64,000 bases of DNA from positions 434,001 through 498,000 of the forward strand of contig CATKHK010000004.1 in the NCBI GenBank assembly GCA_949751835.1, written 5' to 3'. The DNA comes from Blepharisma japonicum. Taxonomy: Eukaryota > Ciliophora > Heterotrichea > Heterotrichida > Blepharismidae. The notes below the pieces were generated by a model. The model was not told where the DNA came from and did no database searches. It saw only the letters and a program-made list of their open reading frames with translations. Below are positions 54,612 to 61,996 of the stretch, in pieces; position 1 is the stretch's first letter; every line of letters begins with the position of its first letter. Made by a program: the position numbers and the translations under genes.

Positions 54612-55712
54612 TTAAGAAAGAATTAGAGGTTTCATACTTGTATCGTTTTGTACCATTATGCTTGAACTTTGGAAGTGTTTTTCCAAAGCAGCCCTACCTT
54701 GTATTCTTGCGTAGCTCAAAGCACAAATTTTATTACTGTTAAACCTTTCCCAAGTTTTCCCATCAAATTCTTGATAGAACGCAGGAATAAATCTATGATC
54801 AACAAAATTGATAAATGAATAGCCGACGTTGCATTTGTTTTTAAAATCGATTGGAAGATATAAAAAATCATAACTCCCAGCATGACGTAAGTCAATCGAT
54901 TGGATAAGCATTGCTTGAGTGTACTTATTTGGAATATTTTTTATCATAATTGTTGTCCGACGATCAATATTTGAGAGAACCAATTCAAGCGAAATCACAT
55001 AATTTCCTTTATCTTCACCTTCAATTTTTTTTTTGGGGACAACAGAATGTCTTTTAGGGATTATTTGAGGACCTATAGAATTCATGTTTGCATTAAGATC
55101 AATTAATGTTAATGGCTCCTTTTCAATAGGATTAGCGTCACAAGGGTCTGGATGGCCTTTTTCTTCAAATTTTAGATCAAATGCTAATATCTTTTGATAT
55201 TCAATTTTCACATCTTCATGAAGCAATGAGCATTGAACAAGCCAAACTCTTCTCCTATCATAATATTTGACAATTCAATACGAATCGATGCGCATTATTT
55301 GCATTGATCCTTGCCCAATAGCTTTGAATATTAGGTTTGAGTTTTTATCTAATGGGTCACTTAACACAACAAAATCAATATACTCAACTTCCAAAGGGTC
55401 TGGAAGATATTTCACGAAATAGATTTGGGATAGGGATACAAATGCATGGCGAGCATCTCTTATGTCGTAATAAGATACTATCACTTCTGAAAAGGCCAAA
55501 TGATGGGTATCAAAGACATGGAGATCTCCAAATTTTTCGAATATTCTTTGAATATCAGAAAGGACAATCCATGGATCGATTCCTGAAACAAATATGTTTC
55601 TAGTCGATTCTTGGCTTATCTGGGGTTCATCTTGTGCTAACGCTTGAAAAGCTGGCAGTCGCTTTTTGAGGTTGCTGGTAGGGAGGGATTCATAATTTCT
55701 TTTCGATACCAT
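54612..55712 (-). CDS. Mei2-type RNA-binding protein
   Basis: 366 aa, one TGA (55275-55277) as Trp, ATG 55712. The C-terminal RRM is of the Mei2 kind: RRTTIMIKNIPNKYTQAMLI, then GSYDFLYLPIDFKNKCNVGY and SFINFVDHRFIPAFYQEFDG. An N-terminal region (~38-120) looks like a second, more degenerate RRM (NIFVSGIDPWIVLSDIQRIF). Mei2-like proteins bind non-coding or messenger RNA and control meiosis or development in yeast and plants; in ciliates a role in conjugation or RNA turnover is plausible but inferred. The spacer to the Era gene stop is 191 bp. Confidence 0.9.
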
Positions 55713-55903: not shown

Positions 55904-57202
55904 CTAATTTTCTTTGTTTGGATCTTCTAAGAATTTTATAGTCTTCTTTGAAATTTCATCAGAGATTTGTAACTTCGGATGCAGAAGGTTTACTTCTCTA
56001 TTGTGTCTTATGGCCCAACTAACAGACTCTTTCATCTTTTTAACTTTTATGGTTAGGCAAATTGGTCGCTGGTATAGCTTTTCAAGTCTGCATTTTACAT
56101 TAAAATGCAATTTTTTGATGCATCTAGCTGCCTTCCCAACAGCCATTCCAACTTGAATATTGCTATGAACCATGAGTTCTGTATCTATCCTTAAAGTGCC
56201 ATCAAGATATGGAGTCCAGCCTACAACTCTTGTGTACCAAATATAAGGTAGCCTATCATGATACATATCAAGCATTTCTGTTCTGAATAATTGATTTACT
56301 TTATCAATGTCAGAGAGCGTAGTCAGCTGCATTGGATGATAGCTTCAGTCTCCTGGCTCTGCAGACTCCATAATATCTTTAACAAGTGTGTCGACATTAT
56401 AATTCTCTTTAGTAGAAATATAAAATGTTTTGTCAAATCTAGCATACTCACGAAGCTCATTTTCTATATACTTTACTCTTCTTCTATCTTGAACTAAGTC
56501 GACTTTAGTGAAAACCAAGTAAGCTGGAATGGTTTTCAATATCTGGCTTTTTCTTTCTTGATAAGCATCTTCTGATTCGTCTATCAATCTCAGCTCTGGT
56601 ATATCTATATCTTCAGATCTTTTTTCAAGTAGTCTTTGTAGTCTTGAAGCAGCTGCTTTTACGTCATCACGCAGCACCTTTACAGTATCAACTAAAAATA
56701 GAGTCAAGTCTGATGAAGAGACCGCATCCCAGCCGAGTGTTGAAATTCTATTTGTTCTGACCCCATGGGTGCTGATAATTCCTGGAGTGTCATGAAATAC
56801 CATCTGCACATTATCTATTGTTTTAATCCCTTCCTTTGCATCTAGTGTTGTGTTTACTTTTCGAGATGTCGCAAAAATCTCAGCTCCCAGAATTTTATTG
56901 ATAAGTGTTGATTTTCCTGCATTTGGAGCTCCAACAACTGCTATTTCTATAGATTTTGAATTTTCTGGAGCTTCAAAGTAAGGAAATAAAGCAATTCTAG
57001 CTTCGAGTGGAACTTCATATACCTCAGTCAATGGACGATTGGGGATTCGGTAAGAAACAACTTCAGCTTTCTTTTCATTCATCTTAATTGGGTGAGGAGA
57101 TGGGATTTTATAAGTTTTTTTAGGTGGAGGAGGAACAGGCGGTGGCTTATACATAAAAGCTTTTGTGGAAGATAGTGATACAAAAAGCCTGACTAATTTC
57201 AT
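55904..57202 (-). CDS. ERAL1: Era-like GTPase (probably mitochondrial, ERAL1)
   Basis: 432 aa, one TGA (56345-56347) as Trp. GTPase domain (~78-285): G1 GAPNAGKSTLINKILG, G3 VFHDTPGI, G4 FTKVD, Era-type switch. A KH RNA-binding domain closes the protein (LRIDTELMVHSNIQVGMAVG then AARCIKKLHFNVKCRLEKLY). Era proteins bind 16S/12S rRNA 3' ends during small-subunit assembly. The N-terminus (MKLVRLFVSLSSTKAFMYK) is basic and amphipathic like a mitochondrial presequence. Between domains, DWSYHPMQLTTLSD fits the linker. It is divergent to the exonuclease gene with a 91-bp shared upstream region. Confidence 0.92.
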
Positions 57203-57293
57203 GATGGCTTTTTGATTAATAAATTAATTAAGAGTTCCTTATGTATTTATTTTCTAATCCAAAAAAATACTTACAGTTTTTAAATACTATTAA
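57203..57293. promoter_or_regulatory. 91-bp divergent promoter region (ERAL1 / exonuclease fusion)
   Basis: Both start codons face outwards, so regulatory sequence for both genes must lie in these 91 bp. It is A/T-rich and carries a TTAATAAATTAATTAA-like stretch close to the ERAL1 start, similar to upstream sequences of other genes in the window. Confidence 0.5.
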
Positions 57294-59915
57294 ATGGGCT
57301 GGTATGAAGACTCATTAGTGAAGCTAAAAAATAATCGTCCCATTTTCTGAGATTGGGCAAGGTTTATAGATTCTATAGACCCAATTGAGCCTCATCAATA
57401 TTACAGAATCCTCCAAGAATACCTTTCAACTCGCACATACTTAATTGGTGATGAAATATTTCCTGAAGATCTTTATCTTGTCAACAAACTCAAACAAATT
57501 CCAACGTTCACCAAAGTTCTTTGTGGGACTAAAAAACCAGAACATTTGTGTAGGTGGTTTAATCAAGTATTTTCAACGTTCCCTGATGAAAAACACGAAT
57601 ACTATTTAAAACATAGTAATGTAATCGACAATCGCCTAATAAAAGCTATTAGAGAAAATGACTATTCGAAGTTCGAAATGCTTCTGGATCTGGTTGATGT
57701 TAATGCTAAAGAAAGTGAATCAGGCCCAAGACCTATCCATATTGCATGCGAAACTGGGAATTTTGAGATTTTAATGAAACTGCTGCAAAAAGGTGCAAGC
57801 ATTGAGACAAAAGATGATGAAGGACTTACACCTATTTTTTATGCAATTCAAAATGATCATAAAGAGATAGTTGAATATCTAATAGAAAACGGTGCAAATA
57901 TTAACCATATTGAAGACCAAAAAAGAAGCTTATTATATTGGACAGCAAGTCTAGGAAAATTAGATTACATTGATAAACTTTTAGAAAAGAACTGTGATCC
58001 TAATATTCAAACTAGGCTAGGTAGAACTTGTTTAAGCAAAGCAGCATGAAATGGAAATTTAGACGTTTTAAAAAGACTTCTTAAAGTTCCTAGTATTGAT
58101 GTAGACATTCCTGATTCTAAAGGAAGAACTGCACTGCATAATGCTGTATGGGGACCTGCTGGAGGAAGATCAGGGAAAAAGATGGCAGAAACAGAAGGTG
58201 ATAGTCCTGAATGTGCTAAGCTTTTAATTGAAGCTGGAGCTAACATTGAAGTAGAAGACAATGCAGGAAATACCCCAATTTGTATAGCCTGCTCCACTTA
58301 TGCATTGGACTCATTAAAATTATTAATAGAGTATGGTGCAGATAAATTTCATGAAAGTAAAGATGGGTACTCGCCTTTGCACCAAGCCTTAGCAAGAGGA
58401 AACATTGAATGTGCTGCAATTTTAATTCAAAATGGAGTTGACCCAAATATGAAAAGCAAAGAAGGAAGGAGTGGCTTAGAAGTGTCAATTCAATTTGGCC
58501 AAGATGAATGCGTTGCTTTTTTGTTGGACTTTAAAGTAGATTGCTCTCAAAAGGAGGTTGAATATTGCATGAAATATGGAAGTCAAGAAAGTCTTGAGAT
58601 GCTTATTGATTATTATGGGAAATGGCAAGGGATGGTTGAATATTGTTTATTGGAAGGAAATGATAATTGTGCTAAGTGGATACTAGAAAAAGTTGAAAGC
58701 TTAAGTATTGAAGAATTAAAAACGGCTTTTAAGAGGAATGAAAAGATTGTTGAAATAGCCTTGGAAAAATGAAAAGGAACGCTTCCAAAAGAAATTCTGG
58801 AGCTTGGGCTGGAGAACGAAATTGATGTTTCAAAAATTTTGGCTAAAGTAAAGCCAACAATGAAAGCTTTACATATAGCAATTACCAAAGGAAAAGAAGA
58901 AATTGCAATAGATATGATAAAGCATTACCCAAAACTTCTGCAAAAGCTTAACCCTCTTACCGGGAGAACTGCCCTTCATTTAGCTGCAGAGCATGGCTTT
59001 TGCAATTTAGCAGCTTCTTTAATCAACGCCGCTTCCAACCCTTGTGAATACATCAGCTTGCTTGATAGTCAAGGTCTTTCTGCAATGATAATTGCAGAGA
59101 TTCACAAATTCCACTCATTTACCGAACTTTTGAAAGACCTCTACTCACAAGTTTCTAACAGAGAAATCATTACACACATAAAAAATATCGAATATGAAGA
59201 AAGTGATGAAGAAATCCCCATTCATCCATATGCGAAGATAGAAATGCCAATCGAATATTTTGATATTAATATAGAGCTTAAAGATATTCCCAATACAGAA
59301 CTGATATGGGTTGATACTGTTGAAAAACTTGAAAGAATGAAAGAATATTTACAAGAAATAAAAGTTATTGGAATTGACCTTGAATATTTCACATTTGCGT
59401 ATAGAAAAGGCTGCGTTTCTTTAGTTCAGATATCAAGCGGAGCCAAAGATTTTGTAGTGGACCCTCTTGTGAATAGAACAAATGTAGGAGAATATTTGAG
59501 AGTTTTAATGGGAGATCCAGGAAAAGTCAAAGTCCTTCATGGTGCAGATTCTGATTTAATGTGGCTTCAGAATGATTTTCTAGCATATGCTGTCAATGTT
59601 TTTGATACAGCTAGAGCTTATAGGGTTATTAAAGGGGATGCTGACCCTCCTTCTTTGGCAATTCTACTATATGTTTATTTGAATATAAAGGCAGATAAAA
59701 CTTTTCAAGTAGCAGATTGGAGAATAAGACCGTTGCCCCAGCCTATGATGGAGTATGCTAGAATAGACGCACATTATCTCCCAGAACTTTATCAAAAATT
59801 AATTGCACAGATGAGCTCCAAAAATTTTGAAGAGTTAGCAAAAATGTGTAATAGCTTATGTCTTAGGAATCCAACAAACAAATATTATAAATTAAATATA
59901 TTAAATTGTGGATAA
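57294..59915 (+). CDS. GST_C / ankyrin / Rrp6-like 3'-5' exonuclease fusion
   Basis: 873 aa, ATG 57294 to TAA 59913-59915, with TGA codons near 57348, 58047 and 58770 as Trp. Part 1 (~1-105) looks like the C-terminal half of a glutathione transferase fold (LSTRTYLIGDEIFPEDLYLV, PEHLCRWFNQVF), as used in tRNA-synthetase and translation complexes. Part 2 (~120-630) is an array of roughly ten ankyrin repeats (GPRPIHIACETGN, DGYSPLHQALARG, GRTALHLAAEHG). Part 3 (~660-870) is a DEDDy exonuclease: IDLEYFTFAYRKG, GADSDLMWLQNDF, FDTARAYRV, QVADWRIRPLP, YARIDAHYLPEL, closest to EXOSC10/Rrp6 by eye. No HRDC domain or nuclear signal is seen after it. I know of no described protein with this combination. 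Probably an RNase with protein-protein targeting; the substrate is unknown. Confidence 0.88.
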
Positions 59916-61393: not shown

Positions 61394-61996
61394 TTATTCT
61401 ATAAACTTTATATATTTTTGAATCCAGTTTTTATAAAGATCTCTTTCTCTGACCAACGCCATTATCTCTATGAATTTCCCAATATCTTCATCAATTCCAA
61501 TCCTAAGCAGCCAATTTTTTATATCATTTTGTAGTGGGAGGCTTAAGAAATTGAAATCAATCTTCGGGGTATCATCATATAAAAATTTTGATGGGTCTCT
61601 TAATCTTGATTGCAAAAATGCCAAATGATGTATCGTAATTTGTGAGTTAATTGATATGCATTCAGCAGTGAAATGTTCCATTCCATCTTTGTGAATATTA
61701 ATAAAAAGGTCTGCAGTGTCCATTATTTCAGGCTTCTCTTCAATTTCGCCGTCATCTTGTTCAAGTTCATCCTTTTTTTCTCCCTTTGCCACTGGCCGCC
61801 TTGAGAAGAACTCAATATCTATTTTATAAGGTGGTGTAAACTTCAATAAGTTCATTTTCGGTGAATTTTGGTTCACTTGTAATGCAAATGATGAGCGTTT
61901 AAGCCACCACTCTAGAAAAGGAATGGGATTGTCAAGGCTGATCTCATAGTTAAGCTCTTTTTTAAGGGTGTTTAGAAGAACAAGTCTAGTGAACAT
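61394..61996 (-). CDS. MAM33/p32-family mitochondrial acidic protein
   Basis: 200 aa, ATG 61996. The C-terminal ~60 residues (KIDFNFLSLPLQNDIKNWLL, GIDEDIGKFIEIMALV, KNWIQKYIKFIE) follow the p32/MAM33 pattern F...LP..LQ...WL..RGI...L..F......E..EYI.WL..L..F. An acidic loop (DELEQDDGEIEEKPE) in the middle is another hallmark; p32 forms a doughnut-shaped acidic trimer in the mitochondrial matrix. The N-terminus (MFTRLVLLNTLKKELN) could be a presequence, although short. In other eukaryotes it supports mitochondrial ribosome assembly and translation. It is the most divergent of the assigned proteins, so this is a moderate call. Confidence 0.62.
   Translation of the reverse strand: MFTRLVLLNTLKKELNYEISLDNPIPFLEWWLKRSSFALQVNQNSPKMNLLKFTPPYKIDIEFFSRRPVAKGEKKDELEQDDGEIEEKPEIMDTADLFINIHKDGMEHFTAECISINSQITIHHLAFLQSRLRDPSKFLYDDTPKIDFNFLSLPLQNDIKNWLLRIGIDEDIGKFIEIMALVRERDLYKNWIQKYIKFIE

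Follow-up and report, generated by a model that had tools for sequence, protein, structure and literature searches.

Nucleases of the Rrp6/EXOSC10 type, which combine a DEDDy catalytic core with PMC2NT and HRDC domains, are usually tied to the exosome. In aminoacyl-tRNA synthetase complexes, according to the portions of PMC10813123 drawn on here, glutathione S-transferase (GST)-like domains associate through interface 1 or interface 2. Interface 2 relies on stacked arginines of helix alpha7, which in the species studied there are kept only in EF1beta, EF1gamma, GluRS and the AIMPs; an AIMP:GluRS pair joined through this interface is the core of the modelled apicomplexan complexes, and EF1beta lacks the GST_N half (PMC10813123). 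The same GST interfaces are described for human in the corresponding part of PMC6760448. Here we analyse a 64,000-nucleotide stretch of contig 4 of the Blepharisma japonicum genome (45.2 Mb in 224 contigs), hereafter the window, in which one gene (57294..59915, + strand, 873 aa with TGA read as Trp) joins a GST_C-type domain of the synthetase class, an ankyrin solenoid and an Rrp6-like exonuclease. The best overall explanation, to which we give a probability of roughly 0.35, is that the product is a scaffolded exoribonuclease that would be docked on an Arc1p-like protein near translation.

The gene is almost certainly real and conserved. Its ATG at 57294 is immediately preceded by an in-frame TAA (57291-57293), and the frame was established by open reading frame analysis, the paralogs and a Blepharisma stoltei ortholog. 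An earlier note made from the DNA letters had described this uninterrupted frame and its three TGA codons, which were confirmed as Trp19 (57348..57350, +), Trp252 (58047..58049, +; Trp is invariant across the 17 members of family alignment A2) and Trp493 (58770..58772, +; Trp in three of three paralogs). B. stoltei reads TGA as Trp and has introns of mostly 15-16 bp, according to the part of PMC9942806 used here; no intron is required within 57294..59915, and the paralog alignment contains no unexplained insert. Pfam analysis of the window protein detected ankyrin families (down to E 7.5e-59), DNA_pol_A_exo1 (residues 671-838, E 4.3e-33) and GST_C (residues 35-94, E 3.3e-4), and homologs share the same plan, which bears out the three-part architecture proposed in the note. 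Two full-length paralogs, each 51% identical to the window protein, are encoded on contigs 151 and 55 of the same genome, and orthologs of all three were found in B. stoltei, that of the window protein being 94% identical and also 873 aa long. Because these paralogs lie on other contigs, and because the plan recurs in the B. stoltei orthologs of all three and in other members, the fusion is not an assembly artefact, and the misassembly junction that the note had allowed for was ruled out. A misassembly, two separate transcripts or a chance read-through of two genes would also have to account for the ankyrin-exonuclease join in 31 family rows from several sources (counting the window protein with both of its paralogs), and such an origin has next to no probability.

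The Rrp6-like DEDDy 3'-5' exonuclease domain occupies residues 668-850 (59295..59843, +), as identified by Pfam, structure matches and motif alignment. Motif alignment placed ExoI at D695-L-E697 (59376..59384, +), ExoII at D754 within HGADSD (59553..59555, +) and ExoIII at Y821-x3-D825 within YARID (59754..59768, +). All of the DEDDy positions claimed in the note are therefore present, and the superfamily pattern (D-x-E, D, Y-x3-D) was found in every one of the 31 family rows that have an exonuclease. Judged by these residues, the window protein is very probably an active exoribonuclease. Names proposed by NCBIfam were set aside as ankyrin and RNase D look-alikes with scores under their cut-offs.

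Among the matches listed, Rrp6/EXOSC10 provided both the best solved-structure matches and the best named matches outside the family, sharing the catalytic fold and every DEDDy residue. This likeness speaks for a diverged Rrp6 paralog that still serves nuclear RNA processing or the exosome and in which GST_C and the ankyrins would have taken over the contact role of PMC2NT and HRDC, but such a role appears unlikely on three counts. Neither PMC2NT (PF08066) nor HRDC (PF00570) was matched at E 0.1 in any of the 17 members, in agreement with the contrast to EXOSC10 drawn previously, and 35 residues remain after the Pfam exonuclease domain in the window protein. The genome also holds two separate canonical Rrp6 genes, L005 with PMC2NT and HRDC and L004 with HRDC, so the fusion family exists alongside canonical Rrp6 and does not replace it. 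Finally, in a tree of the exonuclease domain (14 Rrp6 proteins chosen from 120 listed matches, 31 family rows and 11 further proteins, without the polymerase L019, in which the domain was not matched), the 16 Rrp6 rows did not form one clade and the fusion family branched outside them. Short and long forms of the family stood on one side of a branch with support 95/85. In a second tree, from which P0145, an RNase D and the three EXD3 rows were removed because of their branch lengths, the support was 91/85. This is good but not decisive sequence support for the grouping.

A PF01612 profile search of the genome detected 11 places. Two of these are Rrp6 and three belong to the fusion family; the others are a pair of EXD2-like genes, three EXD3-like genes that have a zinc knuckle, and a polymerase (EXD and polymerase names assigned by eye). 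EXD2, EXD3/Mut-7 and RNase D share the PF01612 domain with the window protein; the genome encodes the EXD2-like and EXD3-like proteins in genes of their own, and in the tree these and four bacterial RNase D rows branched apart from the fusion family. The EXD2-like L006 and L007 carry HRDC after the exonuclease (E 3.4e-7 and 1.4e-6) and, by eye, an apparent N-terminal membrane anchor.

The ankyrin solenoid spans residues 114-621 (57633..59156, +; Pfam and structure model) and comprises about 16 ankyrin-type helix pairs in the model, which corrects the figure of about ten repeats given earlier. Its sixth repeat holds a family signature, GRTALHNAVWGPAGGRSGKK...DSPEC (residues 277-307, 58122..58214, +; pattern and alignment), and the form GRTALHNAVWGxAGGRxGKK...DSPE, unusual for an ankyrin repeat, is common to short and long members. 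The core LHNAVWG, with small variations allowed, occurred in 33 of 347 collected proteins, all of them within the 34 family proteins, P0235 being the family exception. A looser signature pattern also matched 12 EXOSC10 rows, probably by chance. Conservation means were computed on A2 after removal of the near copies P0002, P0003, P0004 and P0009, which left 13 of its 17 rows. A rival reading is an RNase L-like sensor, in which the ankyrins would bind a small ligand or protein at the conserved WGxxGGRxGKK...DSPE loop and thereby switch the nuclease on. The structure matches listed (VIA) for the whole model are ankyrins, RNase L and Rrp6, and no row was a GST. RNase L has kinase-like and KEN RNase domains after its ankyrins and a nuclease of another fold; in the window protein Pfam detected DNA_pol_A_exo1 and no kinase-like domain, and the repeats are more numerous. 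We regard a sensor of this kind as rather improbable.

The family was gathered from protein searches that started from the exonuclease region or from alignments of known members, taking the best 120 rows of each. It comprises at least 31 rows with an exonuclease, a number that counts the window protein and both of its paralogs. The called proteins measure 744-895 aa in 24 rows, the short form, and 1026-1167 aa in the remaining seven, the long form. Named organisms among the matches listed were B. stoltei, Paramecium pentaurelia and P. sonneborni, most rows coming from metagenome or assembly sets. In a third protein search the 120 listed rows were mostly ankyrin proteins and included the family members P0144, P0231 and P0235 only, a result that does not bear on absence from Stentor, Tetrahymena or Oxytricha. 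The alignment of the Paramecium long-form protein P0144 covers residues 115-857 of the window protein at 28%; because of this alignment, the shared signature and the position on one side of the tree branch, the long form is, by sequence comparison, the same family as the short form and not a second invention. The ankyrin-exonuclease architecture thus extends beyond heterotrichs, with relatives carrying both signature and exonuclease in Paramecium. Postciliodesmatophora, to which Blepharisma belongs, and Intramacronucleata, to which Paramecium belongs, are the two main branches of the ciliates, and the fusion is therefore probably as old as their common ancestor, an early ciliate.

Four proteins, P0164, P0166, P0175 and P0177, were considered as a second architecture with the signature and no exonuclease. 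This was rejected, as they match P0145 and stop just before its exonuclease, all terminating at '...EIGLDLSG' or 'EIGFDLSG'; the called frames perhaps stop in an intron, possibly one shared by all four. Their N-terminus is GST-like by alignment, with GST detected by Pfam in P0166 and P0175, and P0129 (670 aa) likewise stops ahead of the exonuclease. A scan of IMG/VR for viral relatives with two short peptide patterns, which distant relatives may escape, gave 14 pattern matches and no relatives. The equivalent scan of prokaryotes, subject to the same limit, gave 36 matches and four relatives that matched solely within residues 666-847 and were read as RNase D.

The N-terminal domain (residues 1-100, 57294..57593, +) was assigned by Pfam and profile search as a GST_C-type domain of the aminoacyl-tRNA-synthetase class, with a predicted docking function. 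The assignment is marginal from the window sequence alone (E 3.3e-4) and firm as a family profile (EPRS, E 9e-10); the profile, A4, was built from the same 13 rows of A2. EPRS, AIMP3 and GluRS filled nine of the ten best rows of the profile search, and at E 0.1 Arc1p_N_like was matched in 13 and GST_C in five of the 17 members, which by profile similarity places the domain with the GluRS/AIMP/EF1B kind and not with the enzyme kind. It resembles the GST-like domains of GluRS/EPRS, AIMP3, Arc1p/p43 and EF1B further in its all-helical C-terminal half and its alpha7 arginine, and differs from them in that it belongs to a fusion protein without the GST_N half, its partner being a nuclease instead of a synthetase, scaffold or elongation factor. 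Pfam detected the thioredoxin half, GST_N, in none of the 17 members at E 0.1, and the model is helical from residue 2 onward; the isolated GST structure model is weak.

In the profile alignment, R87-W88 (57552..57557, +) coincides with the RW of EPRS (R149-W150, counted from the alignment), R87 being the helix alpha7 arginine of interface 2. R87 was conserved in 29 of 29 rows, consisting of 24 short and five P0145-type members with the window protein included, five of which lack the exonuclease in the called frame; six Paramecium-type long rows were inspected separately, and P0128, whose N-terminus is absent, was omitted. At the helix alpha5 N-cap, S/T-x-x-D, S or T is present in 17 of the 24 short rows and F in the window protein, with D59 in all 29. 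Elsewhere in the genome, the Arc1p-like protein L020 (contig 54; GST part at 259009-259239, plus a tRNA-binding domain) keeps the alpha7 arginine; EF1gamma has Lys and EF1beta Gly at this position, and none of 20 compared GST_C loci, EF1gamma included, has Arg (20 of 55 GST_C matches; one locus, L034, repeats the EF1gamma gene). Within the set of GST domains compared, the arginine therefore occurs only in the Arc1p-like protein and the three fusion nucleases, and because these alone share it, the nuclease is proposed to dock on the Arc1p-like scaffold.

In the proposed mechanism, the GST_C domain would dock the nuclease through the alpha7-arginine interface on a p43/Arc1p-like scaffold of the synthetase complex, the ankyrin solenoid would hold a partner or position RNA, and the protein would act as a metal-dependent 3'-5' exoribonuclease apart from the nuclear exosome. 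Docking on some GST partner of the synthetase/EF1B type has a little under an even chance, and docking specifically on the Arc1p-like protein is a more tentative prediction. Its likeliest task would be to trim or turn over RNA 3' ends in the vicinity of the translation machinery. tRNA would be the first candidate, since an enzyme of the RNase D/Rrp6 type placed next to synthetases brings tRNA 3' ends to mind, although it is doubtful that tRNA is the main substrate. Two observations bear on the proposed docking. With the GST_N half absent, interface 1 is not available in its usual form. Of the six Paramecium-type long rows, just one, P0133, has the interface-2 arginine, K standing in P0136 and P0138 and S in P0144, P0231 and P0235. 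Since most Paramecium-type members lack it, docking may be limited to some lineages.

The kind of GST_C domain also bears on which complex would recruit the nuclease, for which the note had suggested a translation or a small-RNA complex. Scan RNAs are essential to ciliates and elsewhere DEDD exonucleases trim small RNAs, and the three paralogs in Blepharisma would suit a small-RNA trimmer in the genome-rearrangement pathways. Against this, the genome has the three EXD3-like genes, which would be nearer known small-RNA trimmers; the open-licence PMC literature on Paramecium, ankyrin, exonuclease and small RNAs yielded nothing relevant; and the GST_C type, being of the GluRS/AIMP/EF1B kind, favours by its sequence a translation complex over a small-RNA complex. 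A small-RNA trimmer is accordingly given little probability.

On the scaffold, the docked nuclease would occupy the place held by GluRS in apicomplexans and yeast. PF00749 matched two places in the genome, read as GlnRS (contig 3) and GluRS (L026, contig 66), and Pfam found no GST domain in this GluRS, just upstream of which a divergent frame starts. A GluRS-type GST on the nuclease and none on GluRS could mean that in these ciliates an exoribonuclease took over the GluRS position on the Arc1p/p43 scaffold. The tRNA-charging complex would then carry a 3'-5' RNase of its own, which might serve tRNA surveillance, for instance; we consider this reading unlikely. The MetRS (L051, contig 25) has a GST-like N-terminus by eye, undetected by Pfam.

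Three neighbouring genes lie on the opposite strand: an Era-like GTPase (named by eye; MMR_HSR1, E 3.2e-19) at 55904-57202 (-), divergent from the nuclease gene with 91 bp from ATG to ATG; an RRM_2 RNA-binding protein (Mei2-like by eye; PF04059, E 1.4e-45) at 54612-55712 (-); and a member of the MAM33/mitochondrial glycoprotein family at 61394-61996 (-; E 1.4e-14).

Although the catalytic module itself is familiar, searches of open-licence PMC papers turned up no published account of such a fusion protein, of this architecture or of how it is distributed among ciliates. The parts of PMC7968707, PMC6431247 and PMC2848206 drawn on here mention ankyrin and exonucleases in other contexts, both words are absent from the main text of PMC9942806, and the B. 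stoltei members are labelled in databases 'unnamed protein product' or '3'-5' exonuclease domain-containing protein'. The family, which occurs in both Blepharisma and Paramecium, couples an Rrp6-type core to ankyrins, and most members add a docking domain of the synthetase type; such an arrangement would be a novel means of bringing RNA decay or trimming next to translation. The predicted contact, R87 against the Arc1p-like protein, is precise and testable.
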